A stretch of 21,031 nucleotides of DNA from a virus, in the IMG/VR virus record IMGVR_UViG_3300044998_001370, positions 1-21,031 of that record; one strand, given 5' to 3'. A program made the translations under genes and the position numbers. Positions 1 to 19,096 of this stretch are shown here, piece by piece. The notes below the pieces were generated by a model. It made no database searches and was not told the DNA's origin. It saw only the letters and a list, made by a program, of their open reading frames with translations. Positions within the stretch are counted from its first letter, which is position 1; each line of letters starts with the position of its first letter.

Positions 1-132
1 GCGGACGCCGGTGACCCGCCGCCAACCGCGTTCCTGATAGCGCCAGCCCTGTTAACCACGAGGATCATCCCGAATGAGGGGTGCCGAGGCCGAGAGAGTG
101 GGTTTGAAACGGTTCCGAACAGGGAGCTTCTG

Positions 133-164
133 ACCGGCCCGCGAAAGCGGGCCGGTTTTGCTTT
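133..164 (+). terminator. Intrinsic (rho-independent) terminator
   Basis: A perfect 9-bp GC-rich stem (CCGGCCCGC at 134-142 and GCGGGCCGG at 147-155) encloses a GAAA tetraloop and is followed by a T-rich run (TTTTGCTTT, 156-164). This is the classic intrinsic terminator layout on the + strand. It ends whatever unit lies upstream of the window and insulates the operon that starts at 508. The product of the upstream unit is not visible. Confidence 0.88.
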
Positions 165-348
165 ACGGATCGGCCGGTTTGCGGAGTCCGGGCGGGATGG
201 CGGAAACGACGGAGAATCCGGGGTCAAACGCTGGGTGGGTCTGGCCGCCGTGCTCTCGGTTTGCGGCCGCCCGGTCGGGCCGCGACGAGAACCCCCGGCG
301 TTCGCGTCGCCCTCTCGGTCGAACCTCTCAAACTCTCTCCGACTCTCG

Positions 349-360
349 GTTAGCGCTAAC
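349..360. promoter_or_regulatory. 12-bp perfect palindrome, candidate operator
   Basis: GTTAGCGCTAAC is an exact inverted repeat with no spacer. It lies about 150 bases upstream of the operon's first start codon and overlaps the third CTCTCGGT copy by two bases. Such symmetry is typical of a dimeric repressor or activator site. No regulator is assigned, although the winged-helix protein of the same operon (5438-7108) could be autoregulatory. The functional assignment is inference. Confidence 0.35.
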
Positions 361-495
361 GCCGATTTGACGCGGGGTTCCGATCGGGGGTGGGCTTCTT
401 GATGGGAGACGACTCGGAAGAGAGAGGCTGAGAGCGTCCGCGGCTGCTCGGCCGATGGTCTCCGCGCCGGTCAGGTTGGGAATCGCATCGACTCG

Positions 496-501
496 TACAA
501 T
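496..501 (+). promoter_or_regulatory. Candidate -10 box giving a leaderless start at 508
   Basis: TACAAT differs from the consensus TATAAT by one base and sits exactly six bases before the ATG at 508. Transcription would therefore start at or next to the A of the start codon. No Shine-Dalgarno sequence lies upstream of this ATG, which fits a leaderless mRNA. The -35 region is weak: the matching position, 473-478, reads AGGTTG. Confidence is moderate because a single -10 hexamer can arise by chance. Confidence 0.45.
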
Positions 502-507
502 CGCACC

Positions 508-2124
508 ATGCCCAAGTTCTATCAGGAGTTGCTCGCCCTCGCGCAATCAGATGCGGCTGCCATCCAGATTGTCTCGCATGAATGGGAGCGGGTGCGGGGT
601 TTCGTCGCGGGCCTGTCACGAGATCTTGGCATTCCGGCTCGCGTCTGGAGCCTTTCGCGCGGAGTGGCGGACCTCGATGAGGTGGCTCAGGTTGGCCAAC
701 CTGACCCGAGTCAGACCGACCCCCAAGAAGTGCTCAAATCGCACTGCGAGGATAAGAAGCCGGCCATACTCCTCATGGAGGACGCACACTACTTCTACCT
801 CGCGTCGGATCGCCGGCATGAAGTGGCCCGATGGCTACGAGAAGCAGCGCGGCTCCGTGGCTCGCCGCGCAAGCTGCTCATCCTCTCTGGTCCCGTTCCG
901 GGTCTACCCCCCGAGACCGTGAAGGAGATTCCGGCCCTTGACGTGCCCTTACCTGACCAGGAGGACTTGAAGGAAGTCTGCCTCAGCGTCGCGCAGGAGC
1001 AGGCAGTCGAGTGTGATCCCGTCGAGTCTCTGCTCGAAGCGGCGAGGGGCTTGACCGTCATGGAAGCGCGTCTGGCCTTTGCTCGTGCAGCGCACGAGAA
1101 GGGTCGGCTGGGGCCGGAAGCCATCCCGCTGGTTGCGCAGGAGAAGTCGCGGGTCATCAAGCAGAGCGGCGTGTTGGAATACTTCGAGCCGAACGCCACG
1201 ATGCGAGATGTCGGTGGCTTGGACAATCTCAAGGCATGGCTGGATCGACGCGGACGCGGCTTCGGGCACGGCGCTCGCGAGCATGGGCTCGAGCCGCCGC
1301 GTGGGATCGTACTGCTCGGCATTCAAGGCTGTGGCAAGTCGCTGATTGCTAAGTCGGTTGCAGCCGCATGGCAGTTCCCATTGCTGAGGTTCGATCTGGG
1401 CCGCGTGTTCGGCGGGGTCGTCGGGCAGTCCGAAGGCAACATGCGGCTTGCGCTCCAGGTCGCTGAAGCGTTGGCTCCGTGTGTGTTGTGGATCGACGAG
1501 ATTGAGAAGGGCCTTTCTGGGATGGGCAGTTCGGATCAGCTCGACGCGGGGGTTTCCGCTCGCGTGGGCGGCACGCTGCTGACGTGGATGCAAGAGAAGA
1601 CCGCGCCCGTGTTCACCGTCGCCACAGCGAATCGCATCGAAGCGCTGCCCCCCGAACTGCTGCGGAAGGGGCGATTCGACGAGATCTTCTTCGTCGATCT
1701 GCCCACCGCGGACGCCCGCAAGGAGATCCTCTCGATTCACCTGTCCAAGAAAAAGCGAGCCCCAAAGGACTTCGAACTGGACCGGCTTGCCCAGGACTCG
1801 CTTGGCTTCTCGGGCGCGGAGCTCGAAGAAGCGGTCCGGGAGGCCCTGTTCGAGTCCTTCGCCGAAGGGAAGGAGGTCACCACCGAGCACATTGCCCGCG
1901 CGATCAAGGCAACATTCCCTCTCTCCCGCACGATGCGCGACCAGATCACCCAGCTGAGGGAATGGTCACGGGCCAGGGCGAGGCGGGCGAGCAGCCAAGA
2001 ACCCGAGCCGTTGCCTCAGGATTCGGGTGGGCCGGTTCCAATCCTCCGTCAGGAGCAACGCAATCCCTTCGTACCACGAACGTCAGCCGCGGGAACCGAG
2101 GAGCGCGGCGAGCGTCGAATGTGA
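508..2124 (+). CDS. Ycf46-type AAA+ ATPase
   Basis: A 538-residue AAA+ ATPase that fits the Ycf46 family of cyanobacteria and plastids. Residues 1-220 form a helical N-terminal region. The AAA module follows at about 225-470, with Walker A GIQGCGKS (271-278), Walker B CVLWIDE (325-331), a sensor-like ATANR segment and an arginine-finger region RKGRFDE starting at 386. The C-terminal 50 residues are polar and probably disordered. The family is thought to remodel protein or nucleoprotein substrates by ATP hydrolysis, but the substrate is unknown. The ATG start has no SD and lies six bases after a -10-like TACAAT. The gene opens a seven-gene operon, and its TGA overlaps the GTG start of the helicase. 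The AAA+ assignment is secure; the Ycf46 subfamily call rests on overall resemblance. Confidence 0.92.
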   Translation: MPKFYQELLALAQSDAAAIQIVSHEWERVRGFVAGLSRDLGIPARVWSLSRGVADLDEVAQVGQPDPSQTDPQEVLKSHCEDKKPAILLMEDAHYFYLASDRRHEVARWLREAARLRGSPRKLLILSGPVPGLPPETVKEIPALDVPLPDQEDLKEVCLSVAQEQAVECDPVESLLEAARGLTVMEARLAFARAAHEKGRLGPEAIPLVAQEKSRVIKQSGVLEYFEPNATMRDVGGLDNLKAWLDRRGRGFGHGAREHGLEPPRGIVLLGIQGCGKSLIAKSVAAAWQFPLLRFDLGRVFGGVVGQSEGNMRLALQVAEALAPCVLWIDEIEKGLSGMGSSDQLDAGVSARVGGTLLTWMQEKTAPVFTVATANRIEALPPELLRKGRFDEIFFVDLPTADARKEILSIHLSKKKRAPKDFELDRLAQDSLGFSGAELEEAVREALFESFAEGKEVTTEHIARAIKATFPLSRTMRDQITQLREWSRARARRASSQEPEPLPQDSGGPVPILRQEQRNPFVPRTSAAGTEERGERRM

Positions 2125-5100
2125 TCTCGTTGCCCAGCATCAAGAAAGGCCGTCTCGTGGGACTACTGAACTACCTAGCGATGGAGCCGACGCAGCGGGC
2201 GTCTGTGATTCAACAGCAGGCCCGCGACGCGCTTGGCCCATTCGAGAGGTACCTGTTCCAAGCACGCCAGAACGCGGAAGAACGCCAACAACGGCACCGC
2301 TTTGCGTTCGAAGTTGTTCGTCGCAAGCACGTGTATCGGTTGCACCCTCTCGACACGCTGGTCGTCCTACGTGCTCACGCGAGCGTGCGTTGGCTGCTGG
2401 AGGGATGGCCTTCACACCGAGGATTTGACCTCACCCGCAAGCTCAACAATGTCGACCGCCAGGAGTACCTCCGCGTCACCGCGGCGACGCAAGTTCCGGC
2501 GGGCCTGCTGATTGAGACTGATTCCGAGCAGTTGCTGGAGGGTGATCGGATCGAGTGGTGCGGGCAGGAGTGCGTGGCTCGGAAGCCAGCTGCCTCAGGC
2601 AGACCGCAAACTGTTGCAGCCGAGGACGGACGAGCGCTGGAAGTTCGTTGGTGGGGTCGAATCGACGAGGATGAGGCCCTTTGCCTCGAAGGTCGCATCG
2701 AAGACTCGACCCTCATCGTTGATGGACAGCGGCGAGAATGCTCGGCATTGTCCGTTTGGGCAGAGTGCAGAATCGCACGCGATTCCAAACGACGCGAGTA
2801 TCCCATCCTGGGCGACACGCTGCGATTGGACGAACCCCTCTCGGGCAGTGTTCTGCTGGCCGACAGGATGAGCGTGCGCCTGGAGGCCAAACCGGCCGAT
2901 GGACGAGGGCGCAGCGGGAACTGGATTCAACTCCTGCTGCCGGACGACTTCCCCGCAGAGCAGGCATTGCTGGACCCGCGGGCCGAGTTCTGTGAGGGCG
3001 AAGAGGTCCGTGAGATCTGGACAGCCCCCGAGCGACGGCACGCGGAATGCCTCAGGATCTTCGAGGTGGACCGCGACCGATACCAGCTGCGCCTTAAGGA
3101 CTTGCCGGCGAAGGGAACGCGCTTCCTCTATGCGCCCCTTGACACACGTGCCGTCGATACCCAGAAGAGGGCCGTTCAGCAACTGCGATACAGCCCTCTG
3201 CCCGCGCATCGCGGTTTGATTCGGTTGTGCGAGAACCCGGAGAAGGCGAGATGGCCAGATGTCCCGGCGTGGTCTTTGCCTGAGCCGGATTGGGAGCTGC
3301 TCGACAAACCCGAGATCGACGGCACCGAGGAGCAACGCGACTTCGTGCGCAAAGCCCTTGCCACAACCGATATCGCGCTGCTTCAAGGGCCGCCCGGTTC
3401 TGGCAAAACGACCGCCATCTGCGAACTGGTGCTGCAGGCGATCAAGAGGGGCGAGCGTGTGCTCATGTGCGCCACGACGCACGTTGCTATCGACAACGCG
3501 CTGGAGAAGCTTTACGACAAACGTCCAGAGATGCTTGAAGCGGTCCGGATTGGTATCGAGGATCGGGTGGATGAGAAGGTACGCGCCCTGCAACTTGACC
3601 GGCGAATCCAGTCGGTCGTGGACTCCTGGCGTGCACATGGCCTCTTTGAGGATCTGTCCGATGACGAACGATGGGAAGCCGCGCAGAGCCTCGTGGTAAC
3701 GAGCGCCAATCTGACGTGCAGCACAACAGCCGGGATCCTCAATCATCCACAGTTGCGGTCGCAGAGGTTCACTGGTGGCGACCGGCCACTGACGACCTTC
3801 GTGCCCTGGGACCTGCTCATCATCGACGAGGCGAGCAAGACGACCGTTACGGAGTTCATCATTCCTGCGTTGCTTGCCCGCAAGCACATCATCGTCGGCG
3901 ATGTGCAGCAGTTGCCTCCATTCACGAACGTCGACGATCTCGAAGCCAACATTGCGCATGTGAGCGATGATGCCGGGAAGGACCTTATCCCGCAGACCTT
4001 GCAACGTGCCCGACTCATCGCGTGGAGATTGACCCGTGAGCCGGTGCGAGGTGCGGGCGTGCGATGGCTGATCGTCGAGGCGACGGAGGTGCTCGATCAT
4101 CTGGAGCGAGAAATTCTGGAGTCCGATTCAAATCGGCAGATCGCTCGCGTCTCGCGGAATGCGCGTCCGGGGCCAGTCCCGCGAGTGACCGTCAAAGAAC
4201 TGGAGAGCGGCTCCGGAACGGTGCTTCGCCTTGCAGCGGCGGAGTGGGTGCTGGTAGATCTGGACGCTTGGCCGCAAGTCCATGATGCTCTGCCTGGTGG
4301 ATTCGTGTTCGCCACAGGGCCGATGGATGAGTGTACCTCCTGGGCATTCCGGCACGCGGCCACCCTGACGCACTCGCCTCGAATCCCGCCGTTTTGGGAG
4401 CGAGGCAGGCAAGTAGCCGCGCGAAACGAACTGGAGCGGATCGAGCGAGACTTTCTCTCTCGACGAACTTGGGCCGCGGAGGTCGCCTGGCGGCTGAAGC
4501 GATGGCACGAACTGCGGTGGAGCGCCGATCGGAAGGAACGAGATCGGATGCAACGCGGACTGGACGAACTGGTGCCGCACACATGGAAGGGGATTCGAGA
4601 GTCGATTGCGGATCAGCGCGACATCGGCCTCCCGAGCGTGATCGAAGTTGTGCAGGAGGGAGTCGGGGCTGGGAGGTCCCGCCGCCCGAACTTTCTGGCA
4701 CATGGGCTGCGCGCCTCACCGGAGGTCCTGAAGGCCAGGTTCGAGTGCCTGACCTATCAGCATCGGATGCACCCCGAGATCTCGAACTACCCACGAAGCG
4801 TCATCTATGAGCGATTGGCCAAGCAAGCCGCCTTGCGGGATGCCAACACGATTCCGATGCGTGATGCTGTCGTCCGATGGGACTTTGCGCCAGAGGTCCG
4901 CAGACGACGAGTATGGATGGACATCCACGGGAGCGAACACCGGGGTGTAAACGAAGCCGAAGTGAAGGCGATGAAGTCCTGGCTAGAGCGGTTTATCGAC
5001 TGGGCCGAGCGCAAGGGACCACCTGCTGGCCGCAGACCTCCATCCGGCAAGAAGCGCGCGGTGTGGGAGGTCGCGTGTCTGTGCTTCTACGTCCGCCAGG

Positions 5101-5441
5101 AGGAGGCGATTTCCGACATGGTGCGACAAGTTACCGGATCGGACGCACGTCACTGCTTTCTGTACCCGAATGAGGACGAGCCGCTGATCGAGATTCGCTG
5201 CGGCACGGTCGATCGGTTTCAGGGACGGGAGGCGGATCTGGTACTGCTCTCGATGCGGAACACCGGGCGCGTGGGGTTTCTTGACAGCCCGAACAGGATC
5301 AACGTCGGGGTGACGAGAGCGCGGCAACAACTGGTCATCTTCGGCCGGTACGATTTCTATGCCAAGGACGATCGCGTGGCATTGGAGCTCAGGGAGTTGG
5401 CCACTATGACGCCTCGTATCAATGGGGGAAGGCACTCGTGA
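2121..5441 (+). CDS. UPF1-like SF1 helicase with long N-terminal extension
   Basis: An 1106-residue superfamily 1 helicase of the UPF1/DNA2-like (AAA_11/AAA_12) type. Motif I GPPGSGKT is at 423-430, motif II DEAS at 569-572, motif III GDVQQLPP from 593, motif IV YQHRMHP from 879, motif V GTVDRFQGREAD from 1028 and motif VI VGVTRARQQ from 1062. All are intact, so ATP-driven unwinding or translocation on RNA or DNA is expected. The first 400 residues match no domain I recognise. Motifs III and IV are separated by about 280 residues, far more than usual, so a domain seems to be inserted there. The frame is open upstream to 1584, but that part overlaps the ATPase gene. GTG 2121 overlaps the ATPase stop (GTGA) and is preferred. 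The helicase stop overlaps the next gene in the same way. Confidence 0.93.
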   Translation: MISLPSIKKGRLVGLLNYLAMEPTQRASVIQQQARDALGPFERYLFQARQNAEERQQRHRFAFEVVRRKHVYRLHPLDTLVVLRAHASVRWLLEGWPSHRGFDLTRKLNNVDRQEYLRVTAATQVPAGLLIETDSEQLLEGDRIEWCGQECVARKPAASGRPQTVAAEDGRALEVRWWGRIDEDEALCLEGRIEDSTLIVDGQRRECSALSVWAECRIARDSKRREYPILGDTLRLDEPLSGSVLLADRMSVRLEAKPADGRGRSGNWIQLLLPDDFPAEQALLDPRAEFCEGEEVREIWTAPERRHAECLRIFEVDRDRYQLRLKDLPAKGTRFLYAPLDTRAVDTQKRAVQQLRYSPLPAHRGLIRLCENPEKARWPDVPAWSLPEPDWELLDKPEIDGTEEQRDFVRKALATTDIALLQGPPGSGKTTAICELVLQAIKRGERVLMCATTHVAIDNALEKLYDKRPEMLEAVRIGIEDRVDEKVRALQLDRRIQSVVDSWRAHGLFEDLSDDERWEAAQSLVVTSANLTCSTTAGILNHPQLRSQRFTGGDRPLTTFVPWDLLIIDEASKTTVTEFIIPALLARKHIIVGDVQQLPPFTNVDDLEANIAHVSDDAGKDLIPQTLQRARLIAWRLTREPVRGAGVRWLIVEATEVLDHLEREILESDSNRQIARVSRNARPGPVPRVTVKELESGSGTVLRLAAAEWVLVDLDAWPQVHDALPGGFVFATGPMDECTSWAFRHAATLTHSPRIPPFWERGRQVAARNELERIERDFLSRRTWAAEVAWRLKRWHELRWSADRKERDRMQRGLDELVPHTWKGIRESIADQRDIGLPSVIEVVQEGVGAGRSRRPNFLAHGLRASPEVLKARFECLTYQHRMHPEISNYPRSVIYERLAKQAALRDANTIPMRDAVVRWDFAPEVRRRRVWMDIHGSEHRGVNEAEVKAMKSWLERFIDWAERKGPPAGRRPPSGKKRAVWEVACLCFYVRQEEAISDMVRQVTGSDARHCFLYPNEDEPLIEIRCGTVDRFQGREADLVLLSMRNTGRVGFLDSPNRINVGVTRARQQLVIFGRYDFYAKDDRVALELRELATMTPRINGGRHS

Positions 5442-7108
5442 GATGTGAACTCGTGACGTCCCTGAAGGTGCACCGATTCGCTGCGTTTGCAGAGATGGCC
5501 GTGTATGTCAAACGACCGGAGATGCAGGCACTATGCCGGGCAGCGCTAAAGGCTGGTGGTGTCATCACGCACGAGGCGGTGCGCAGCGTGCTGCCTGATG
5601 CCACGGACGTAGCGTGCAGCAACATCATCGGCTGGTGCCGCGAGATCGGCTTGTGTGACAAGCGTGACGTGCTCACCGAGACGGGTAAGCAAGCAGCGAG
5701 CGAAGAAGGTGAAGCACCCCTGCTTGAACAGGGCGTGTACGCGCTGTGGGGCGTCGAGCACCCCGTTCTCGGCGGGCGCATCCTTCACTGGGAGCGAATC
5801 CGGATCGACCGCAACGATGAGGGAACTCCTGCCCAACTGCCCTTGACGATCGACTTGAACCAGGTCTGGCGGTCGGTCATTTCGGGCAAGGGGTTTGCGG
5901 TGCGTGATCTGCCGAGCGGGAACCGTGAGCCGCTCGGGTATACGGATTCTGACCATCAGTCCACTTGCGAGCTTCGGTGGAACATTGACTTCCGCTTGGG
6001 AATAAGCCAATGGACGCTCGCCGGACGTATCGCCGGTGGCCGCGATGGTGACCCGGGGCCGATTCGTTCCACACCTACAGATCGTCCGTGCGACCTGCGC
6101 ACGCTGGCCGACCGTTGGATGCGTGGAGTCAAACCTGCGGAGGGACGCTGGAATCTTCAGCAACGCCGCCTCGAGGTGCCGTTCAAGGAAACTCTTGACG
6201 AAGCCGTACGACACACCTTTCAGACTTCGGTCAATCTCGACGAGGTGGAAGGTCCCGATGGTGACGTCTATGAGCATGTCCGCATCACAGATGTACCTGT
6301 CGGCCCGGCGACGCCGGACGACGCGCGTCGATGGATGCTGTGGCGGCTGCGTCGGCGCCTCGCCGAGCCGGGCTATCGATCGGCAGATGCCCTGGCCGCG
6401 GAGTACGTCGCCGTCACCGAAGGCACGCCGCTCGAGGCGATGACTGCGGCACCAGAGCCGGAGGAGATTCTGAAGGAGACGCGGAACGAGCGGCCGTTGT
6501 TCTGGCGTGTTGCCGCAGGGCTCGACCTGACCTGCGAACCCAAGGTGGTGGTTGCGAAGTCCACAAAGGTCGCTCTCTCGGCACCTTCATCACCCGCGAG
6601 TGTTCGGCTCGTTCGAGACTCCAACCTCTCGATGCAGGAGTTGCTGTCTCGATTGCTCGGCACGGTCCGCCCGCGGCGAGTGCTTATCTGCGATCGCTTC
6701 GTTCGCGGCGATGGCAACCTGGCCTGCCTCAGGCTTCTGCATGACTCGCTACGTCAGCAGCATGCGAACTCGCGGCTCTTCGTGCTGACTGATCGGGATG
6801 CAGCGGACCCAAGGCAGGCCGCGCGAATTCAGCAGGTAGTTGGCGAGTCGCCCGTGTGGTATGAGCAGGCGTTCGGACGCATCAGGGCCGAGCAGCCGCA
6901 CGACCGATTCCTTCTCGTCGACTCCGGCGATACCCGTCTCGCGTGGCAGATGTCCAACAGCCCGCTCGACGCGCGACCTCTTCTTGGCAAGGCCGCGACG
7001 CCGGACGCGCCACTGAAGTGGCGAGATCTGGCCTGCACACCGGTCGCTCCGTCGGAGCTGTACTACCCGTACTTGATCAAGTGGTTCGATGGAGGGAAGC
7101 CCGTATGA
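5438..7108 (+). CDS. Winged-helix protein with possible PLD-like C-terminal domain
   Basis: A 556-residue protein with no close family that I recognise. Residues about 25-85 look like a winged helix: GVITHEAVRSVLP, then a recognition-helix-like segment, then GLCDKRDVLTETGK. The middle is polar and strand-rich. Near the C terminus, RVLICDRFV (414-422) and HDRFLLVD (488-495) are spaced like the two halves of a phospholipase D-like fold, in which a variant HxK element often reads HDR. The lysine of a canonical HKD motif is absent, so nuclease activity is uncertain and the domain may be degenerate. The GTG start overlaps the helicase stop (GTGA), with a purine-rich GGGGGAAGG upstream. Overlap with both neighbours suggests coupled translation. 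DNA or RNA recognition is inferred; the gene is certain, its function is not. Confidence 0.85.
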   Translation: MRCELVTSLKVHRFAAFAEMAVYVKRPEMQALCRAALKAGGVITHEAVRSVLPDATDVACSNIIGWCREIGLCDKRDVLTETGKQAASEEGEAPLLEQGVYALWGVEHPVLGGRILHWERIRIDRNDEGTPAQLPLTIDLNQVWRSVISGKGFAVRDLPSGNREPLGYTDSDHQSTCELRWNIDFRLGISQWTLAGRIAGGRDGDPGPIRSTPTDRPCDLRTLADRWMRGVKPAEGRWNLQQRRLEVPFKETLDEAVRHTFQTSVNLDEVEGPDGDVYEHVRITDVPVGPATPDDARRWMLWRLRRRLAEPGYRSADALAAEYVAVTEGTPLEAMTAAPEPEEILKETRNERPLFWRVAAGLDLTCEPKVVVAKSTKVALSAPSSPASVRLVRDSNLSMQELLSRLLGTVRPRRVLICDRFVRGDGNLACLRLLHDSLRQQHANSRLFVLTDRDAADPRQAARIQQVVGESPVWYEQAFGRIRAEQPHDRFLLVDSGDTRLAWQMSNSPLDARPLLGKAATPDAPLKWRDLACTPVAPSELYYPYLIKWFDGGKPV

Positions 7109-9111
7109 CCACTCTACGTGGCCCCATCCAGCTGTACTCACGCCGAAATACGGTCGACCGTTCAGATGTGCGCATTGCGGTCGCGTGGGAGTGCCTCGCG
7201 CAAGGCACGGAAGGGCTCGCTCCGACTGACCCCTGGATCGACCCGACGAGCGCACATTTCAGCGACATGATCCGGCGCGTGGTGGGCGATGCCAGCCAGC
7301 CATCGATGTTTGTGCTGCCTGAAACGGCACCAAGTTCGCTCACGCGTGCCATGCTCGAAGCCACGGCGGGTGATCGCCGCGTGTACGTGCTGGGCTCGCT
7401 CGGGTTTGGGGCCGGGCAGCGCGATCCGGGCCTGCGCGACAGGGCATCGGCCTTCGTGCTCGCTCGCCGCACTTCGCTGCCGCTGCTTTCGGCCGTGGTC
7501 AACTGCTCGACCCGGCGCGCTGGGCTCTGCATCGGTGCCCTCGCGACCGGAGCACCCCAATGGGCCATTGAGCTTGACGAGGGCCAGAGCGCTGGGTTCG
7601 TCCGCGTCGCCCTCCACTGGTTCTGGCATCACGCCGCGGATGAAGCATGGACAGAGTCGAAGTCACCAGCGTTGACGTTTCAGCCGCCTCAAGACCGCCC
7701 AGTCGATGTCGTCCCACCAACGGACGGCCCGGTGCGGCTTCTTCGCAGACCGGTCGATTCTGAAGTTGCCCCGGGTGACGCGGTTTGTGTTCGAAGCACA
7801 AGCGTCGGGCTACCCCAGCGGGCGCGCCGACTGATCACTACGCCATCGGGAGATGGTCAGGCGGATCTGGCAGCGCTTGTTGCGGCCGGGTCGGAAGTGA
7901 TCGGTCTTGCGCAGGTGCTGCCGGACTTATGGGTGACGCCGTCGGAGGGCATGATCGAATGGCCGATCGCCGACTTCATGCTCCGGATCACACTCAACTC
8001 GTCTCAAGCTCGCACGCTCCACGATGCGCTGCTTCAAGCCAGGCCAGCAGCTGTTCTCCGCAGAGAGGTACCTCTGCGGGCCCTGTCTGGGGCGGTCTGG
8101 CTTCCGAATGCTGCTTCGGCCAAGCCATGCATCGACGAAGCAGAGATTGAGGTCGGCGAAGTTCCTTGCGAGTCCCTGGATGAGGTATCGAACAAGGAGC
8201 CAGAAAAATGGCCGGACGCACCTCCGCTCGTCCGCAAGGCAATCTTCGCATGGACGAATGTCCCGCCCACGCCACCTGCGAAAGCGGTGCGCAGCGACCT
8301 TTACCAGCAGTGGGATGAAGCGGACAAGTCTCTGTCCTTACGCGTCAAGACCTGCAGTGAACAGCTCAAGTCCGCCGGGGAACGCAGCGATCAGGCAAGA
8401 TCAATACTCGGACGCTGGTTTGAAGGGGTGCTCGGCCTTGACCGAAAGCGACGCGAATTGGTGGCCGAGTGCGAGTCGCTTGCTGTCGTGAAACTCGCCG
8501 GCGGGTCGGTGGATGCCGCTCGTGGGTTCGTGGAACGCCTGAAGACGCTCGAAGCTGGCGTGCAGGAGTATGTCCGTGGCGTGGATAGCGATATCGCCAA
8601 GGCCGACGAACAGCAGCAGCGCGAACAGTGGGAGAAAGAGCAGGCCGAGCACAGGGCGCAACTCGACGAGATTGACGCCAAGATTGCAGCTGCGAAGCAG
8701 CAGAAATCGTCCCTCGACGAGGAGAGCAAGGATGGTCAGCGGAAAGGGGAGAGCGATTCGGACTGGAAGGCACGGCAGCGAAGGCTCAACGATGACCTGA
8801 AGACTGTTGCCAACGATATCGCACGTCTCAACGGCAGCCGGAGTCAGCATGAGCAGGCGCTGAAGCGTCCCTTCAGTCCGAAGTCGAGGCATGGCAATGA
8901 CGCGAAGAGAAGCAGCGGCAAAGGGTTTGTTCCCGCACCAACGAAGGCGTCGGCGGGACTTCGGGTCCCCGCCGAGGCCCTGCCCTCAATAGGAGAACTG
9001 TTCGAGGCTGGAACGGACCGATACCTGGCGATCGACACCTGGGAACAGCACGATCCTGGCCGTGCCGAGGCCGCTCGACTGAAGGCACGCATGGTTGCTC
9101 GAAAGAGGTGA
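7105..9111 (+). CDS. Unknown protein with long C-terminal coiled coil
   Basis: A 668-residue protein that I do not recognise. The first 400 residues look globular, with mixed hydrophobic strands and a tryptophan-rich stretch LHWFWHHAADEAW. Residues about 400-590 are rich in Glu, Gln, Lys, Arg and Ala in heptad-like order, indicating one or more coiled coils. The last 50 residues form a small conserved-looking tail (GELFEAGTDRYLAIDTWEQ). No signal peptide or transmembrane segment is evident. ATG 7105 overlaps the preceding stop (ATGA) and has GGAGGGA eight or so bases upstream. Earlier in-frame starts exist inside the upstream gene but are unlikely. A scaffold or adaptor role for the two ATPases of the operon is a guess from the coiled coil. 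Confidence 0.87.
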   Translation: MTTLRGPIQLYSRRNTVDRSDVRIAVAWECLAQGTEGLAPTDPWIDPTSAHFSDMIRRVVGDASQPSMFVLPETAPSSLTRAMLEATAGDRRVYVLGSLGFGAGQRDPGLRDRASAFVLARRTSLPLLSAVVNCSTRRAGLCIGALATGAPQWAIELDEGQSAGFVRVALHWFWHHAADEAWTESKSPALTFQPPQDRPVDVVPPTDGPVRLLRRPVDSEVAPGDAVCVRSTSVGLPQRARRLITTPSGDGQADLAALVAAGSEVIGLAQVLPDLWVTPSEGMIEWPIADFMLRITLNSSQARTLHDALLQARPAAVLRREVPLRALSGAVWLPNAASAKPCIDEAEIEVGEVPCESLDEVSNKEPEKWPDAPPLVRKAIFAWTNVPPTPPAKAVRSDLYQQWDEADKSLSLRVKTCSEQLKSAGERSDQARSILGRWFEGVLGLDRKRRELVAECESLAVVKLAGGSVDAARGFVERLKTLEAGVQEYVRGVDSDIAKADEQQQREQWEKEQAEHRAQLDEIDAKIAAAKQQKSSLDEESKDGQRKGESDSDWKARQRRLNDDLKTVANDIARLNGSRSQHEQALKRPFSPKSRHGNDAKRSSGKGFVPAPTKASAGLRVPAEALPSIGELFEAGTDRYLAIDTWEQHDPGRAEAARLKARMVARKR

Positions 9112-9114
9112 CGT

Positions 9115-9330
9115 ATGCGAGAACAGCGAATCGAGATCGAGATCGATGAACACGGCCGGATCAAGGCCGACGCGCACGGCTTCACGGGTGATGCGTGCAT
9201 CAAGGACCTGGAGAAGATTCTCGCCGATTGCCCCGGCGCATTGGTAAGCGTCGACCGGAAACAGTCTGATCGGCCGACAAGTGCCACGACGTCCAATCAG
9301 GCCAACCTGAAGAGCGGAGGTAGGCCATGA
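9115..9330 (+). CDS. DUF2997 family small protein
   Basis: A 71-residue protein whose opening (IEIEIDEHGRIKADAHGFTG, then CIKDLEKIL) has the pattern of the DUF2997 family: a short beta-rich N terminus with a conserved Gly and Cys before a helix. The C-terminal 20 residues are polar and probably flexible. DUF2997 proteins have no established biochemical role. From general knowledge they often lie next to DUF1257 (Ycf35) genes, as here. The start is three bases after the previous stop and is preceded by AGAGG. The stop overlaps the DUF1257 start (ATGA). The single cysteine at the family's conserved position is worth noting because the operon ends with an iron-sulfur enzyme. Confidence 0.8.
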   Translation: MREQRIEIEIDEHGRIKADAHGFTGDACIKDLEKILADCPGALVSVDRKQSDRPTSATTSNQANLKSGGRP

Positions 9331-9821
9331 GCGCATACCTGCAACTCGCCACTCCAATGACCGATGCCGAGTGCCTTGTGGATGCCCTCGCTGACGTTGG
9401 CTTTGCACGTTCTATGGTGGAGATTCATGAACAGGCGGTGGCACTGGTTGGCTACGAGGGAGCCGCGCGAGAGCAGCAGGCCCACATCATCATCCGCCGC
9501 CAGCACGTCGGTAGCGGCTCAAACGATGTCGGATTCGTCCGGACACCGACCGGCTTTCGTTTGATCGTGAGCGGGTATGACCAGTCGCGCTTCGGTTCGG
9601 CGTGGCTGGCACGCTTGAGCAGCCGCTACGAAGTACATCAAATGGAGAAGGACCGTCGTCTGGCCGAGGAACAGCGCCGAGCCGCGGAGGAAGAACGGCG
9701 ACGTCTCGTCGAGGCGACCCGGTCGGCGGTGATCGAGAAGGCCAAGAACAGCGGGTATCGCATCGAGGAGCGCGTCGAGCAAGGCTGTGTCCGGCTGGTA
9801 CTCTCCAAGCGGGTTTATTGA
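9327..9821 (+). CDS. DUF1257 (Ycf35-like) protein
   Basis: A 164-residue protein fitting DUF1257, the family that includes cyanobacterial and plastid Ycf35. The N-terminal half (about 1-100) is a mixed alpha/beta domain containing DAECLVDALADVGF, a conserved-looking YDQSRFG segment and a following short helix. Residues 104-140 are a long charged helix, almost all Glu, Arg and Ala. The last 20 residues are beta-like (RVEQGCVRLVLSK). The family's function is unknown. A strong SD (GGAGGT, 9316-9321) lies six bases upstream, the best in the operon, suggesting that this protein is made at a higher rate. The start overlaps the DUF2997 stop and the stop overlaps the radical-SAM start (TGATG). Confidence 0.85.
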   Translation: MSAYLQLATPMTDAECLVDALADVGFARSMVEIHEQAVALVGYEGAAREQQAHIIIRRQHVGSGSNDVGFVRTPTGFRLIVSGYDQSRFGSAWLARLSSRYEVHQMEKDRRLAEEQRRAAEEERRRLVEATRSAVIEKAKNSGYRIEERVEQGCVRLVLSKRVY

Positions 9822-10426
9822 TGAGCACCTCGGGGACCATCAACGTGGCGCGATGGCTGTCGCGGAGCAGCGTTAACGGCCCCGGAGAACGCTTCGTTCT
9901 TTGGGTTCAAGGCTGCCCTCTGCACTGCCCGGGCTGCTGGAACCCGGACACATGGTCTCACGCTCCGCGCCGGTTGATGGCCGTTTCCGAGATCGCCGAC
10001 CTGATCTCCAAGAGCGGGCCAATTGACGGAGTCACGTTCACGGGTGGCGAGCCATTCGCTCAGGCGTGTGGCTTGGCCGTGCTGGCCGAGCACCTCCGTG
10101 GCACCGGCATGTCGCTCATGGCGTTTACGGGATACGAAATTGAAGAGCTCGTCGAAGCCGAGCAAAAGCGACTGCTCGGACTGCTGGACATCGTGGTGAC
10201 GGGAAGGTATGTGCGTGAACTGAGATCTGATGGATTGCTATGGCGGGGCTCGAGCAACCAGCGGGTTCATTTCCTAACGGAGCGCCATAGAGCGTGTGAG
10301 ACGACGAACGCGCATCGTCCTGTGGCAGAGATCGTGATACCGGACTCTGGCCCAAGCGTCGTGACAGGCTTCCCCGATTCCGGGTTGCTGCGTCGGCTCG
10401 GCGTGGCGTCGCGTGGGCATCCGTAG
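9821..10426 (+). CDS. Radical-SAM activase-like 4Fe-4S protein (NrdG-like)
   Basis: A 201-residue member of the small radical-SAM activating-enzyme group related to NrdG and PflA. The cluster-binding CxxxCxxC is intact as C32, C36 and C39 (GCPLHCPGCWN), and the GGEP motif that contacts S-adenosylmethionine is at 75-78. MAFTGYEIEEL and the later DIVVTGRYV follow the NrdG pattern. Such enzymes bind one 4Fe-4S cluster, cleave SAM to a 5'-deoxyadenosyl radical and usually generate a glycyl radical on a partner. No ribonucleotide reductase or other glycyl-radical enzyme is visible here, so the substrate may be another protein of the operon. ATG 9821 overlaps the DUF1257 stop by one base. The longer frame starting at 9602 would lie inside DUF1257 and is rejected. 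Confidence 0.9.
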   Translation: MSTSGTINVARWLSRSSVNGPGERFVLWVQGCPLHCPGCWNPDTWSHAPRRLMAVSEIADLISKSGPIDGVTFTGGEPFAQACGLAVLAEHLRGTGMSLMAFTGYEIEELVEAEQKRLLGLLDIVVTGRYVRELRSDGLLWRGSSNQRVHFLTERHRACETTNAHRPVAEIVIPDSGPSVVTGFPDSGLLRRLGVASRGHP

Positions 10427-10741
10427 GCCTCTCAAACACACGCGACGGCTTCGAGGCTTCGTTTCTGATTCTGGCGGCGTCTCCAAGCGCCAAGGGATCA
10501 TCGAAATCCAATGTCGCCGTATCGACGCCGAGGCGAGACTCGTGAATCTGCCTGCTGATTGCTCGATTTTCCACAGTCTCTCGGACACTCGACGATCAAC
10601 CCTGGGAGTCGTCACACGGCTCCTTCGGAGACACGCCACCATCGGAACCGTTTGCGTAGATGGTGGTTGACGCCCCGCTGGCGGGCGGCCCGACCCCATC
10701 GCTGACCCGCCCCCTGGGCGAGCCAACGCACGGATGCATCC
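10427..10741. other. Spacer between the seven-gene operon and the integration module
   Basis: About 315 bases with no supported gene. A + strand frame (10413-10670) and longer minus-strand frames cross it, but they read as basic Arg-rich chance ORFs without motifs. No intrinsic terminator with a U-tract and no clear promoter was found. Composition changes across this stretch from moderately to very GC-rich, which suggests a junction between DNA of different origin. It may hold an element boundary or a recombination site. Confidence 0.4.
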
Positions 10742-10981
10742 ATGCCGATCGACCTCGACGAAAGGGCCGAGCGCGATGACTTCGCGCTGCCCGACCTGCT
10801 GACCCCGGCCAAGCGGCTGCGGATCATCGCGGACATTCTGGCCGAGGGCGTGCGCCGGCGGCGCGAGGATGCCCGCCGCATGGGCGAGCCGGGTGACATT
10901 TCGCAGCATCCAGAAAGAGAGGATTCAGGACTTGAAGCCTCGGGACCGGTCCGCCTTGATCGTCCACTCCAGGGCGGTTGA
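10742..10981 (+). CDS. Small hypothetical protein of the recombinase module
   Basis: A 79-residue protein. Its first half (MPIDLDERAERDDFALPDLL, then a helical RLRIIADILAEGVRRRREDARR) looks like a genuine acidic-then-basic helical sequence. The C-terminal third is polar. I know no function for it, but small ORFs of this kind do occur ahead of DUF2924 and serine-recombinase genes in phage-like elements. There is no clear SD before the ATG. It lies 24 bases upstream of the DUF2924 gene in the same direction and is probably cotranscribed. Confidence is moderate because the protein is short and I cannot search for homologues. Confidence 0.6.
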   Translation: MPIDLDERAERDDFALPDLLTPAKRLRIIADILAEGVRRRREDARRMGEPGDISQHPEREDSGLEASGPVRLDRPLQGG

Positions 10982-11005
10982 CGCCTTGCGAACCGGAGAG
11001 TCCCG

Positions 11006-11533
11006 ATGATGCCACACCCTTCGCCCCCACCCGATAATCCCGCCACGGCCGCCCGAGCCCTCGCCAAGCTCACCGTTGCCGAACTGAGGCAGCGCTACGC
11101 CGAGGTCTTCGGCGAGCCGACGCGGACGAACCACAAGCAGTACCTCATCAAGCGGATCGTCTGGCGGACGCAGGCGCTCCGCGAGGGCGGTTTGTCGGAA
11201 CGGGCTCGGCGGCGGGCGCTCGAACTGGCCGACGACGCGGAGATCCGCCTGAGCGCCCCCCGGGCGATGGCACGCGGGCCGGGGACGACGGTGGCGGCGG
11301 CGTTCGACGCGGGCCGCCCGGCGTCGTTCCCGAAGCCCGGGGCCGTGATCCGCCGCGAGTACAAGGGACGGGCGGTCGTGGTGCGGGTGCTGCCGCGCGG
11401 GTTCGAGTACGAGGGCGAGGTGTACCGCTCGCTCACGGCGATCGCCCGAAAGATCACCGGGGCGCACTGGAACGGCGTGAGCTTCTTCGGCCTGCCGTCG
11501 GCACGCGGGAAGAAGGCGGAGGTTGAGGCATGA
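11006..11533 (+). CDS. DUF2924 domain protein
   Basis: A 175-residue basic protein fitting DUF2924. Residues 15-70 carry the family's start (LTVAELRQRYAEVFGEPTRT, then the helix HKQYLIKRIVWR). Residues about 105-170 carry the C-terminal part, with VIRREYKGRAVVVRVL, a YRSLTAIA helix and WNGVSFFGL. The C-terminal part resembles a small DNA-binding fold found beside phage recombinases. DUF2924 genes commonly sit immediately upstream of large serine recombinases, as here, so a role in recombination control is likely but unproven. A GGAGAG sequence (10994-10999) serves as SD, and a second in-frame ATG at 11009 is also possible. The stop overlaps the recombinase start (ATGA), implying coupled translation. 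Confidence 0.85.
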   Translation: MMPHPSPPPDNPATAARALAKLTVAELRQRYAEVFGEPTRTNHKQYLIKRIVWRTQALREGGLSERARRRALELADDAEIRLSAPRAMARGPGTTVAAAFDAGRPASFPKPGAVIRREYKGRAVVVRVLPRGFEYEGEVYRSLTAIARKITGAHWNGVSFFGLPSARGKKAEVEA

Positions 11534-13095
11534 GGAAGCAACCGGAGGCTAAGCCGAAGACGCGGGTGCAGTGCGCCATCTACACCCGCAAGAGCACCGA
11601 AGAGGGGCTCGAACAGGAGTTCAACTCGCTCGACGCGCAGCGCGAGAGCGCCGAGGCGTACATCGCCAGCCAGAAGGGCGAGGGCTGGGTCGCGCTCCCC
11701 GACCGCTACGACGATGGGGGCTTCACGGGCGGGAACATGGAGCGGCCGGCGGTGAAGCGTCTGATGGCGGACATCGAGTCCGGCAAGGTGGACTGCGTGG
11801 TCGTCTACAAGGTGGACCGCCTGAGCCGCTCTCTCATCGACTTTGCCCGCATGATGGAGGTGTTCGAGCGGAAGAAAGTCTCGTTCGTCTCCGTCACCCA
11901 GCAGTTCAACACGACGCAGTCGATGGGGCGGCTCACGCTGAACATCCTGCTCTCGTTCGCGCAGTTCGAGCGGGAGATCATCAGCGAACGCACGCGGGAC
12001 AAGATCGCGGCGGCCCGGCGCAAGGGGAAGTGGTCGGGCGGACGATCGATCCTCGGCTACGACGTGGACCCGGTGACGAAGAAGCTCGTGGTGAACCGCC
12101 AGGAGGCGGACCTAGTCCGCGAGATATTCCGGATGTACGTCGCCAAGCGGTCGCTGCTGGATGTCTGCCGCGATCTGAACCAGCGGGGCCTTCGGACCAA
12201 GGTCGTCCGCACCCGCAAGGGCCAGACGTACGGTGGGCGGGAGTGGGACAAGGCGGGGGTGTTGAAGGTGCTCGCCAACGTTCTGTACCGAGGGCGCGTC
12301 CGCTACAAGGCCGAGACGTTCCCCGGCGAGCACGAGGCGATCGTGCCCGACGACCTGTGGACGAAGGTTCATGAACGGCTGAGAACCAATGGCCGCTCGG
12401 GCGGCATGCACCTGCGCAACAAGTACGGGGCGCTCCTGAAGGGCCTGATCCACTGCGGTCCGTGCGGGCTCACGATGGGCCACACGATGACCAGCAAGAA
12501 CGGCGCGCGAATGTACCGCTACTACGTCTGCTACAAGGCGCAGAAGCAGGGATGGGACTCGTGCCCGTGCCGCTCGCTGCCCGCCGAGCAGATCGAGGGT
12601 TTCGTCGTCGAGCAGATCAAGCGTATCGGGAAGGACCCGGAGTTACTGTCGCTCACGCTGGCCAAGTGCCGGGAACAGATGACCGCGCAGCGGCTGGCCG
12701 CGGAGGGGGAACTGGCGGGAGTCGAGCGGGACCTGGCCCGCCTTCACGCCGATCTGGGCCGGACGGCGAGCGACGCCGCCCGCGACGCCCACGCGGCGGC
12801 CCGGCTGGCGGACCTCCACGAAATGGTGCGCGGGGCCGAGGAACGGGCGGCCACGCTCCGGCGAGCGATCGAGGAGGCGAGCGCGGACGGGATCACGAAA
12901 GCGGAGATAGACGCGGCGCTCGCCGAGTTCGACGGGGTCTGGTCGCGCCTATCGCCGAAGGAGCAGGCGAGGCTGATGCGGATGCTGGTCCAGCGGGTGG
13001 ACTACGACGCGACGAAGGGGTCGGTCTCCATCACGTTCCACCCGCTGGGCCTGCGATCCATCGGACAGCGCGGCGTTGAAGAGGAGGCGGCATGA
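11530..13095 (+). CDS. Large serine recombinase
   Basis: A 521-residue site-specific recombinase. The N-terminal resolvase domain has the catalytic serine in YTRKS (Ser22), then the conserved DRYDDGGFTGGNMERP, VVYKVDRLSRS and SFAQFEREIISERTRD elements through about residue 160. A recombinase domain follows (about 175-295), then a zinc ribbon in which CGPCG and the later CPC supply the metal-binding cysteines. The C-terminal 160 residues contain a coiled coil (ERDLARLHADLG region), typical of integrases that control excision direction. These enzymes integrate or excise DNA between attachment sites. The start overlaps the DUF2924 stop and the stop overlaps the next gene's start. It is probably the integrase of the element in this window. 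All expected catalytic and structural parts appear present. Confidence 0.95.
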   Translation: MRKQPEAKPKTRVQCAIYTRKSTEEGLEQEFNSLDAQRESAEAYIASQKGEGWVALPDRYDDGGFTGGNMERPAVKRLMADIESGKVDCVVVYKVDRLSRSLIDFARMMEVFERKKVSFVSVTQQFNTTQSMGRLTLNILLSFAQFEREIISERTRDKIAAARRKGKWSGGRSILGYDVDPVTKKLVVNRQEADLVREIFRMYVAKRSLLDVCRDLNQRGLRTKVVRTRKGQTYGGREWDKAGVLKVLANVLYRGRVRYKAETFPGEHEAIVPDDLWTKVHERLRTNGRSGGMHLRNKYGALLKGLIHCGPCGLTMGHTMTSKNGARMYRYYVCYKAQKQGWDSCPCRSLPAEQIEGFVVEQIKRIGKDPELLSLTLAKCREQMTAQRLAAEGELAGVERDLARLHADLGRTASDAARDAHAAARLADLHEMVRGAEERAATLRRAIEEASADGITKAEIDAALAEFDGVWSRLSPKEQARLMRMLVQRVDYDATKGSVSITFHPLGLRSIGQRGVEEEAA

Positions 13096-13520
13096 CCGAC
13101 GGCGTCACCATCGACTTCAAAGTCCACTTCACCACGGGTCAGTGCGGCACGCGCGTGATGCATGCGGGAGAACGTGCGACGCCGGCAGAGATGCCCGAAG
13201 GCCGCGTGCCGCGCATCTCGAAGTTGATGGCGCTGGCGATCCGCTTCGAGGAGCTGGTCCGCAGCGGCGAGGTGGCCGATTTCGCGGATATCGCCGAACT
13301 GGGCCACGTCACGCGGGCTCGCGTGAGCCAGATCGTCAACCTGCTGAACCTCGCGCCGGACATCCAGGAGGCGATCCTGTTCCTGCCGCGGGTGGCAGGG
13401 GAAGGGGGGACGGTGTCGGAGCGGCAGGTTCGAACGATCGCGGCGGAAGCAGATTGGGCCAGGCAACGCGAGTCGTGGCGCTCACTCGTCGGCTCTACAG
13501 CAGGTGGCCGAATTCGCTGA
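13092..13520 (+). CDS. ParB/KorB-like HTH protein
   Basis: A 142-residue protein with a helix-turn-helix at about residues 58-95: FADIAELGHVTRARVSQIVN followed by LLNLAPDIQEAIL. This matches the central HTH of ParB/KorB-type and related phage DNA-binding proteins. There is no N-terminal ParB nuclease domain, so partition activity is unlikely. A role as DNA-binding partner or directionality factor for the recombinase is plausible. The ATG overlaps the recombinase stop (ATGA), and the four genes from 10742 form one coupled unit. The 3' end overlaps the convergent PIN toxin gene by 26 bases, which is unusual. The true stop could be read through only if sequence errors are present. Confidence 0.8.
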   Translation: MTDGVTIDFKVHFTTGQCGTRVMHAGERATPAEMPEGRVPRISKLMALAIRFEELVRSGEVADFADIAELGHVTRARVSQIVNLLNLAPDIQEAILFLPRVAGEGGTVSERQVRTIAAEADWARQRESWRSLVGSTAGGRIR

Positions 13521-14064
13521 GGCGGGAGACCGTGTCAGGAAGGCGCTGCGCGGCCAGCGAGTCGAGGTACTCTTCGACAGACTTCGCCGGGTTGCGCAGC
13601 GCTTCCCGCTGGCGTTTTGCCGCGGAGCATACCGCGCCCGGGGCGAGGTCGATTAGGTGCGAGATGAACTCGTCGGGATGCTGGGCCTCAATGCCGAACC
13701 CGGCGATGTACGGGTTGGGAAAGTCCTTCAGGTTGAACGTGACGATGACATCGGCCCGGGCGCGGATCGCCGCCGCGACGACGTGGCGATCATTCGGGTC
13801 GGGCAGTTCCAGGCCGTTGATCAGCGGCTCGTATCCGACGACGAGGCAGTCCCGGACGTGGGAGTTCATGAGGTCGCGCGTGCGGTCGAGTTGGGCGCGC
13901 GACAGGTCGGGTCGGTCCTCGAGCAGCTTGCCGATCCACTCCTCGTGGATGCGGTCGGTCCAGCGAGCGCGGAACAGGTCGGTCAGCGCGATGCGCATGA
14001 GGAAGTCCCGGAGCGGAGCCGGGTACAGCACGCATGAGTCGTAGAGTGCTGTGAAGGTCGCCAT
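13495..14064 (-). CDS. PIN-domain ribonuclease toxin
   Basis: A 189-residue PIN-domain protein. The acidic metal-binding residues of the fold are visible: D9 (ALYDSCVLYP), E41/E42 (IHEEW), D92 (DPNDRHVV) and D114 in the region FNLKDFP. PIN toxins cleave RNA, commonly tRNA or mRNA, and are neutralised by a cognate antitoxin. It lies 34 bases downstream of an excisionase-like HTH gene on the same strand, the usual antitoxin-first order. The C-terminal 50 residues extend beyond the minimal PIN fold. Its 3' end overlaps the convergent HTH gene at 13495-13520. The PIN call is strong, and the toxin role is inferred from gene order. Confidence 0.87.
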   Translation of the reverse strand: MATFTALYDSCVLYPAPLRDFLMRIALTDLFRARWTDRIHEEWIGKLLEDRPDLSRAQLDRTRDLMNSHVRDCLVVGYEPLINGLELPDPNDRHVVAAAIRARADVIVTFNLKDFPNPYIAGFGIEAQHPDEFISHLIDLAPGAVCSAAKRQREALRNPAKSVEEYLDSLAAQRLPDTVSRLSEFGHLL

Positions 14065-14098
14065 CGCGCCGTCGCATCCTTGCCGGGTGGCCGGCGCA

Positions 14099-14566
14099 TC
14101 AGTAGCCCATACGGAGTTCCTGCGCCTGCTTCGTCAGCTCGTCGAGAGCCTCGTGGCGCTTGGCGTCCATCGCGTCCTTGTACCGCATGAGCTCGACGAA
14201 GAGTACACGCCGGTGGGTGCCGACCTTGCGGTAGTCGATCCTCCCGGCGTCAAGCTCCTTGACGAGGAACGGCCGCGAGACGCCCAGGAGGTCGGCGGCC
14301 TGCTGCGTGGTCAGTTCGGCGTGGATCGGCATGAGCGTCACGGCGTTGCCCTCGGCCATCTGCGTCAGCAGGTGGACCAGCAGCTGGACGGCGGCGGCGG
14401 GAAGCAGGATGTCGGGGCCGTCACCGTCTGTGATCCGGACCCGAAGGTCCTGCTTGGCGTACGGCGAGAGCCTCCGGCTGGACTCCCGGGCAAGCCGGGA
14501 CTCGTGGTCGGTCGGTGCGACCGGGCCGATCCGGGCGTTTCGGGGTGGCAGGGCGGTAGTCGACAT
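14099..14566 (-). CDS. Excisionase-family HTH antitoxin
   Basis: A 155-residue protein with a MerR/excisionase-type (HTH_17) helix-turn-helix near the C-terminal half: LTTQQAADLLGVSRPFLVKE, then IDYRKVGTHRRVLF. Proteins of this kind pair with downstream PIN toxins, binding the toxin and repressing the shared promoter. The N-terminal half is charged. I chose the ATG at 14566 because GAGAGGA lies just before it. An in-frame ATG at 14602 would add twelve residues, and the frame is open further upstream without good reason to extend it. The PIN gene follows after 34 bases. An imperfect dyad at 14585-14600 could be the autoregulatory site. Confidence 0.83.
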   Translation of the reverse strand: MSTTALPPRNARIGPVAPTDHESRLARESSRRLSPYAKQDLRVRITDGDGPDILLPAAAVQLLVHLLTQMAEGNAVTLMPIHAELTTQQAADLLGVSRPFLVKELDAGRIDYRKVGTHRRVLFVELMRYKDAMDAKRHEALDELTKQAQELRMGY

Positions 14567-14584
14567 GGGTGGGTCCTCTCCAGT

Positions 14585-14600
14585 GGACAGTCTATCGTCC
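14585..14600. promoter_or_regulatory. Imperfect dyad upstream of the toxin-antitoxin pair
   Basis: GGACAGTCTATCGTCC has four-base perfect arms (GGAC/GTCC) and partial pairing inside. It lies directly upstream of the antitoxin start, where antitoxins usually bind to repress their own operon. Calling it an operator is inference from position and symmetry. The sequence is short enough to occur by chance. Confidence 0.3.
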
Positions 14601-14771
14601 ATCTGCAATAATCGCAACCAGTGCAATCTACGAATCTCGACCGGGTTCGGTTCGGTCCGGCCGGAAAGGACCGTCACCACCCCGTCTCGCAGGCAGTTCT
14701 CGGGCCCTGAGCAGGCAGAGGAGCACCACATCTCGGGCAGGGCATGCCTGAGCGACCCCAGGAGTAGAGCG

Positions 14772-16890: not shown

Positions 16891-16896
16891 CTAGTC
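16883..16896. repeat. Overlapping palindromes at the end of the 15934 gene
   Basis: AGTCATGACT (16883-16892) and GACTAGTC (16889-16896) are perfect palindromes sharing four bases, and the stop codon lies within the first. A related GGACTGATC follows at once. They may be a regulator site or a remnant crossover site. There is no U-tract, so a terminator is unlikely. Confidence 0.3.
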
Positions 16897-16932
16897 AGGA
16901 CTGATCCCACGCTTCGAACGCGAGAGACTCCC

Positions 16933-16949
16933 GCCAGTTGATCACTGGC
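16933..16949. promoter_or_regulatory. Operator-like dyad (GCCAGT-N5-ACTGGC)
   Basis: Perfect six-base arms flank a five-base centre (TGATC). The dyad lies about 45 bases upstream of a strong SD-ATG pair (16968-16983) and about 280 bases upstream of the sigma-like gene that opens the phage module. Position and symmetry suggest binding by a phage-type repressor. The assignment is inference. Confidence 0.35.
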
Positions 16950-16980
16950 CTGGCCCCCGAGGGTCCCAAGGAGTCTCACG

Positions 16981-17049
16981 ATGATGTGCATCTCACCCGT
17001 CCCTGAAGCTCGCTGGCGTTCGCCTCCGCTCGGAGTCGTGCGCGCGTAG
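16981..17049 (+). CDS. Possible 22-residue leader peptide
   Basis: ATG 16981 follows a near-perfect SD (AAGGAG, 16968-16973) at a spacing of seven bases, one of the best ribosome binding sites in the window. The frame stops after 22 codons (ATGATGTGCATC... to TAG). The peptide has no recognisable motif. It could be a regulatory leader peptide, a small phage protein, or the truncated start of a lost gene. Its existence is supported only by the SD and spacing. Confidence 0.3.
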   Translation: MMCISPVPEARWRSPPLGVVRA

Positions 17050-17228
17050 CGCGATCGGCGAGCGCACCACGCGCTCCGCCTCGGGCGAATCCGCCCATCA
17101 CCCTTTGGTCGCGTCCGAGTCCGCTCGGCACCGCGGCCCGCCCCAGACCCGTCATTCCACTTGACAGCACTCAACGCGGCCCTGTGCCTCGGCGCGGTGG
17201 CTGCGCGCAGAAACAGAAGGACAAGCAG

Positions 17229-17750: not shown

Positions 17751-17802
17751 ATCGCACGCCACGGCGCGCGCGTTTCGCGTAGATGGACCCCGGAGAACTG
17801 CC

Positions 17803-18150: not shown

Positions 18151-18251
18151 CTGAGCGTCCCTCCATCCCCGCTCTTCCCCTCGTCCGTCTCGGCCAAGGC
18201 GATTACATCCGCGACATCTTCCCCCACGACCTCGTTCCCATCGGAGACCCC

Positions 18252-19082: not shown

Positions 19083-19096
19083 AAGGACTCTGACCC

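Follow-up and report, generated by a model that had tools for sequence, protein, structure and literature searches.

A conserved seven-gene helicase operon on a virus contig, a candidate defence system joining a helicase-PLD core to an AAA-DUF1257-DUF2997 and radical-SAM module

The window analysed here is the whole 21,031-nucleotide stretch (positions 1-21,031) of IMG/VR virus record IMGVR_UViG_3300044998_001370. It holds an operon of seven genes (positions 508-10426), a serine recombinase and a probable toxin-antitoxin pair, arranged as follows.

508..2124, forward strand: G1, CDC48-like AAA+ ATPase (Pfam AAA, 7e-28)
2121..5441, forward strand: G2, UPF1/IGHMBP2-like SF1 helicase, GTG start (Pfam AAA_11, 3e-33; AAA_12, 8e-28)
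5438..7108, forward strand: G3, winged-helix/PLD-like protein, GTG start, no significant Pfam match
7105..9111, forward strand: G4, degenerate tandem PLD protein with a coiled coil, no significant Pfam match
9115..9330, forward strand: G5, small DUF2997 protein (Pfam 6e-5, just under the cut-off)
9327..9821, forward strand: G6, DUF1257 protein of the Ycf35 family (Pfam 1e-6, over the cut-off)
9821..10426, forward strand: G7, NrdG/PFL-activase-like radical-SAM protein, ATG start (Pfam Fer4_12, 5e-35, and Radical_SAM)
11530..13095, forward strand: serine recombinase; in five loci (L008-L012) a homologue follows G7 at a distance of 0.4-1.1 kb
13495-14824, reverse strand: PIN_3 and HTH_17 proteins, a probable toxin-antitoxin pair on DNA shared with L008

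Neighbouring frames overlap by 4 nt at G1/G2, G2/G3, G3/G4 and G5/G6 and are 3 nt apart at G4/G5; the G6/G7 overlap is 1 nt with the ATG at 9821, or 4 nt if G7 starts at the TTG at 9818. The coordinates thus bear out the original prediction of seven frames in one run, each junction an overlap or a three-base gap. Its calls of an AAA protein, a UPF1-like helicase, a DUF1257 protein and a radical-SAM protein all correspond to significant Pfam matches. The assignment of G5 to DUF2997 lies just under the Pfam cut-off, but the homologues share a G-F-x-G-x-x-C motif with an invariant Cys.

The arrangement is far from unique to this contig. A helicase alignment was scanned against 84,980 species genomes and the seven proteins were mapped on the 80 loci returned. 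The complete set was found in 20 other loci among these, in the order G1 to G7 and mostly with 4-nt overlaps; in L014, L016, L019, L021 and L023 the frames are in place, the automatic choice of start codons having put the G5-G7 starts out of order. Carriers of all seven genes include Phycisphaerae (L008-L011, helicase identity 66-95%), a Planctomycetota MAG (L015), many Myxococcota, Pseudomonas sp. A-1 (L017:8421-18230), Kuenenia, where the helicase is split across two frames (L029), and a MAG labelled Rhizobiaceae that is possibly misbinned (L032). Genes missing from loci of this group are mostly explained by cuts at contig ends; L020 lacks G7 although its contig runs on, and L027 has G2-G4 only. 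Divergent versions, in some of which genes have moved or went undetected, occur in Desulfobacterales (L033), Poseidoniales (L048), Fibrobacter (L037, L080), Tenericutes (L073) and another archaeal MAG (L052), where G1 comes last. Such recurrence in unrelated genomes is far beyond chance.

Distance matrices correlate for all gene pairs (Mantel rho 0.45-0.97, p 0.001). When the DNA is compared with L009 and L011, similarity is lost right at the operon ends or slightly within them, and clustering of the flanking proteins disclosed no neighbour common to all loci; apart from the serine recombinase, present in five of them, only a four-member group, to which a protein kinase (L015) belongs, and a single pair were obtained. 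From the recurrence, the correlation between gene pairs, the lack of a common flanking gene and the loss of similarity at the operon ends we conclude that the conserved unit consists of these seven genes. In relatives the genes are not scattered and unlinked but form a conserved set with clear bounds. Three loci (L022:7794-11162, L030:18447-22496 and L048:8724-10970) have a large protein without a Pfam match directly or shortly after G7; these proteins do not cluster together.

G2 has a long N-terminal region ahead of its helicase domain. The motifs GPPGSGKT and DEAS are present in 34 of 34 relatives, and Q-[HY]-RMH, QGxExD and TRA in 31 of the 34. Among solved structures, those of SMUBP-2 and UPF1, both helicases, come closest to it. 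The top PADLOC profile is MkoA of the Mokosh system (5.8e-76), the best stretch aligning residues 312-615 with 534-843 of 1112 and so covering part of MkoA only. Mokosh resembles the operon in that a protein of PLD fold accompanies a UPF1-like helicase. However, Pfam detects no kinase or NERD region in G2, neither G3 nor G4 matches MkoB at E 0.1 in PADLOC, though G4 has a PLD fold, and the operon has five genes more than the helicase-PLD pair of Mokosh. The best reading of these comparisons is that the operon would be a distant relative of Mokosh among helicase-PLD systems.

The two proteins that follow were modelled with AlphaFold from orthologue alignments and are confident locally (mean pLDDT 87.2 for G3 and 85.6 for G4), with uncertain placement of the domains (pTM 0.56 and 0.60, respectively). 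The sequence of G3 gave nothing significant against the PDB. The top PDB matches of its model are to MITD1 (E 4e-5 to 9e-4), whose domain we take to be PLD-like; TDP1 matches less well and falls short of significance (E 0.09 and above). In this C-terminal domain H488-x-R490 is invariant in 21 sequences and sits within P-H-x-R-[YF] in most homologues. The N-terminal part shows weak homology to the winged-helix-like product of the second gene in a related operon described below; together with the MITD1-like C-terminal fold, this suits the earlier label of winged-helix/PLD-like protein. G4 had been described as a coiled-coil protein. The coiled coil is indeed present (residues ~398-587, followed by a small C-terminal domain), but the first ~390 residues also adopt a PLD fold, a tandem PLD region extending over residues ~8-390. 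Its model matches PPK1 (8e-5) and then Zucchini, SauUSI and Nuc (4e-3 to 2e-2), and profile comparison aligns residues 8-389 with the PLD protein of the related operon (99.8%, 5e-29). In this comparison the motif is gone at both HKD positions, and motif scans of G4 homologues give sporadic strings only. With PLD-type homology and fold and the HKD lost at both positions, we class G4 as a pseudo-PLD that also carries a coiled coil. The list of parts first proposed was thus right, except that G4 is devoid of PLD active sites and that the H-x-R of G3 constitutes a putative site. Since catalytic motifs are missing from G4 and an arginine of G3 stands where a lysine is expected, the operon may hold no nuclease.

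The related, sister operon has four genes, encoding a helicase, a wHTH protein, a PLD protein and a CARF-AAA-HTH protein, and was seen in plasmid matches, in L005 and L006 and in many of the loci L040-L087. Its first three genes correspond, in the same order, to the helicase, the N-terminal part of G3 and G4; however, the second gene is shorter, the PLD protein has two HKD motifs, and a CARF-AAA-HTH regulator, matching RtcR_PspF1 at 9e-126 and 5e-209, takes the place of G1, G5, G6 and G7. Two results are clear from this comparison. G2-G3-G4, that is, an SF1 helicase, a wHTH/PLD-like protein and a tandem-PLD fold, form a core common to both operons, and an AAA-DUF1257-DUF2997 cassette with an NrdG-like radical-SAM gene stands where the sister has its CARF-AAA-HTH gene. 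No CARF-AAA-HTH match was obtained among G1-G7, or in L008-L032 and L070. Among 54 further loci (L033-L087 without L070), 27 carry CARF-AAA-HTH without G1 or G5-G7, eight carry G1 and/or G5-G7 without CARF, and 19 have neither, owing in part to contig ends or divergence; both modules together were seen in no examined locus. In a helicase tree (quick mode) the CARF-type helicases form one clade and the seven-gene type does not form a single one; two plasmid STK-helicases, stand-ins for MkoA whose identity as MkoA is assumed, lie outside the whole family. The sister operon recurs in many Pseudomonadota and other genomes, and no name was found for it; it lies near dndB in L005 and near cas1/cas2 in L006. 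A helicase-G3-G4 set with no detected AAA, DUF or radical-SAM genes occurs in L027 and L148-L151 and could be a minimal variant or the product of contig-end cuts.

The replacing module has relatives of its own. DUF1257/Ycf35 and DUF2997 are best known from plastids and cyanobacteria. G1 bears a CDC48/FtsH-like AAA domain at its C-terminus (residues ~227-483) and is 34% identical, over nearly its full length, to an AAA protein adjoining DUF1257/DUF2997 on a Nostoc plasmid. Stand-alone Ycf46/Ycf35/DUF2997 cassettes have homologous AAA, DUF1257 and DUF2997 genes side by side, as the operon does, but are devoid of the helicase, G3 and G4. In Myxococcota, where the AAA-DUF1257(-DUF2997) cassette also occurs by itself, DUF1257 was found in 80 of 379 genomes, with an AAA gene adjoining it in all 12 of the short loci read, and none of eight stand-alone cassettes inspected has a G7-like gene next to it. 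The AAA tree places the operon copies in one clade separate from the stand-alone copies (support 100/100), long branches calling for caution. PDB sequence searches with the DUF1257 and DUF2997 alignments returned nothing significant. In G5, positions G22 and C28 of the G-F-x-G-x-x-C motif do not vary across 21 sequences; a DUF2997 copy in L007, which retains GFxGxxC with no adjacent radical-SAM gene, makes it less likely that G5 is a radical-SAM substrate. G1 also resembles IetA of IetAS in its AAA domain (PADLOC 2e-20); however, it scores 68.4 bits against a NCBIfam cut-off of 510 bits for IetA, and no protease partner was identified. Cyanobacteria have a DUF2997-ycf35-fed7 gene group, the fed7 operon of Synechocystis (PMC4284462), in which Fed7 is a [4Fe-4S] ferredoxin and not, like G7, a radical-SAM protein.

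G7 itself has CxxxCxxC and GGEP in 27 of 27 relatives and shares the minimal radical-SAM fold and the CxxxCxxC with NrdG and pyruvate formate-lyase activase. However, its score against NrdG (115.5 bits) is under the curated equivalog cut-off of NCBIfam (126.1 bits), and none of the seven genes encodes a glycyl-radical enzyme.

No named system with this gene set was found in PADLOC-DB 2023, NCBIfam 2026 or Pfam, and the set is unnamed in the open literature searched, a scope outside which lie subscription papers and the current DefenseFinder models. DUF1257 is mentioned in only 3 of 5.39 million open papers. Together with its conservation and clear bounds, this supports the view, put forward in the original prediction, of an undescribed multi-protein system that may act on nucleic acid or on modified protein. 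As judged from sequence, its kind, a multi-gene helicase-PLD defence-like system, would be a known one and its combination of modules would not. DISARM/ARMADA, defined by a YprA-family helicase and a methyltransferase (PMC12458937), was considered and rejected, no match to DrmA, DrmB or PglX being found in G1-G7.

Several findings bear on mobility. The neighbours named at the outset (serine recombinase, toxin-antitoxin pair, phage genes) are all there, and DUF2924, AAA_24, DUF669 and RusA were also found. Bases 1-19108 of the window recur without a difference within a 57-kb IMG/VR contig that encodes capsid/protease, terminase and tape-measure proteins. Upstream on that contig (L109:234-11519) lie genes for a 2221-aa RHS-repeat protein, a secretin and a T2SSE ATPase, an unusual set beside tailed-phage head and tail genes; the record may include host DNA. 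The operon adjoins terminase in L009. The Phycisphaerae MAG HBSAPP03 (L008) matches the window over 15.2 kb at 90.6% identity and over a further 4.2 kb at 81%. Just upstream of its operon lies a complete Azaca system (L008:1398-7766, reverse strand; ZacA 2e-124, ZacB 1e-173, ZacC E=0), at the place where HBSAPP03 and the virus contig diverge, the latter having other genes there. The serine recombinase is probably a mobility partner outside the conserved unit. Carriage is sparse: a single strong match among 29 genomes from one family, 2 of 298 in a sample of the class Phycisphaerae (four candidates scored per genome, so that some may be missed) and, in Myxococcota, matches to G4 that are both long and strong in about 14 of 379 genomes (three candidates scored per genome). 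Trees nest Pseudomonas sp. A-1 among the Myxococcota. A tblastn search of plasmids with G3 and G4 gave no match.

These features lead us to regard the operon as probably a self-contained, horizontally moved system of defence, or inter-element conflict, that travels here as prophage cargo and would work along the lines proposed below. A role in defence is the best-supported reading by analogy with relatives and neighbours; it is favoured by the patchy carriage, the prophage cargo, the relation to the Mokosh helicase, the Azaca genes beside the L008 operon, the dndB and cas1/cas2 genes near sister operons and the PADLOC-like genes in the flanks. PADLOC families numbered 59 and 43 in two sets of 101 flanking proteins, whereas a single control set, also of 101 proteins, gave 23. 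These are counts of families rather than distinct proteins, which redundant profiles, kinases, methylases and helicases inflate, and the control itself contained DISARM/Dpd-like genes; the excess is no more than suggestive.

One could instead envision an RNA-damage response or an RNA-repair machine in which damaged RNA would be the substrate of the UPF1-like helicase and the PLD-fold proteins. As in RNA-repair operons, a regulator of the RtcR type is encoded in the sister operon, and the best solved relatives of G2, SMUBP-2 and UPF1, would fit such a role. We nevertheless consider this unlikely given the rare carriage, the prophage cargo, Azaca in L008 and the dndB and cas1/cas2 genes near the two sister operons viewed; moreover, RNA damage itself can trigger defence systems, so the two readings overlap. 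Still less probable is that the operon serves the prophage's own replication, lysogeny or counter-defence. Its contig is indeed a phage one, with phage replication genes close by, but the seven-gene unit is also found in unrelated surroundings, such as beside recC in Pseudomonas sp. A-1. Furthermore, IMG/VR scans with G2, G3 or G4 yielded one further contig only, a longer copy of the window contig, which indicates that the operon is not a gene set usual in phages. Finally, that a Ycf46/Ycf35-type cassette and a helicase operon, both ordinary, adjoin by chance is very improbable and already refuted: the AAA-DUF1257-DUF2997 cassette does exist alone, and helicase-G3-G4 occurs with no detected cassette in L027 and L148-L151, but in 20 loci the core is bracketed by cassette genes, G1 ahead of it and G5-G7 behind it, with overlapping junctions, the operon AAA forms its own clade (100/100) and the genes co-vary.

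If the operon does act in defence, the families of its proteins suggest the following course of events. G3 and the coiled-coil pseudo-PLD G4 would bind or scaffold foreign nucleic acid, along which the helicase G2 would translocate; the PLD-like domain of G3, through its H-x-R, or the helicase alone would then destroy or block the nucleic acid. G1, the AAA+ ATPase, might load, remodel or release the complex through G5 and G6 as adaptors and thus serve as a switch, and G7 might introduce a radical-type or Fe-S-dependent modification into one of the components, or keep it in place. It is tempting to speculate, tentatively and with more doubt than confidence, that this is a widespread and hitherto undescribed immune system of bacteria and archaea in which the AAA/DUF1257/DUF2997 and radical-SAM proteins control the helicase, a pseudo-nuclease scaffold replaces the PLD nuclease, and radical chemistry, directed at nucleic acid or a small protein, provides the switch or the weapon.

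What recurs is a conserved, bounded unit in which a recognisable core is combined with an exchangeable control module, either the CARF regulator or the AAA-DUF1257-DUF2997-radical-SAM set. DUF1257/Ycf35 and DUF2997 are thereby placed in a helicase machine that sits on mobile DNA, and what they do can be tested in a Pseudomonas that grows in culture. Should the defence reading prove true, radical-SAM activase chemistry, of another kind than viperin's, would join helicase-based immunity. In Pseudomonas sp. A-1 the operon ends ~50 bp before recC (L017:18284-21772, forward strand), a possible insertion hotspot.
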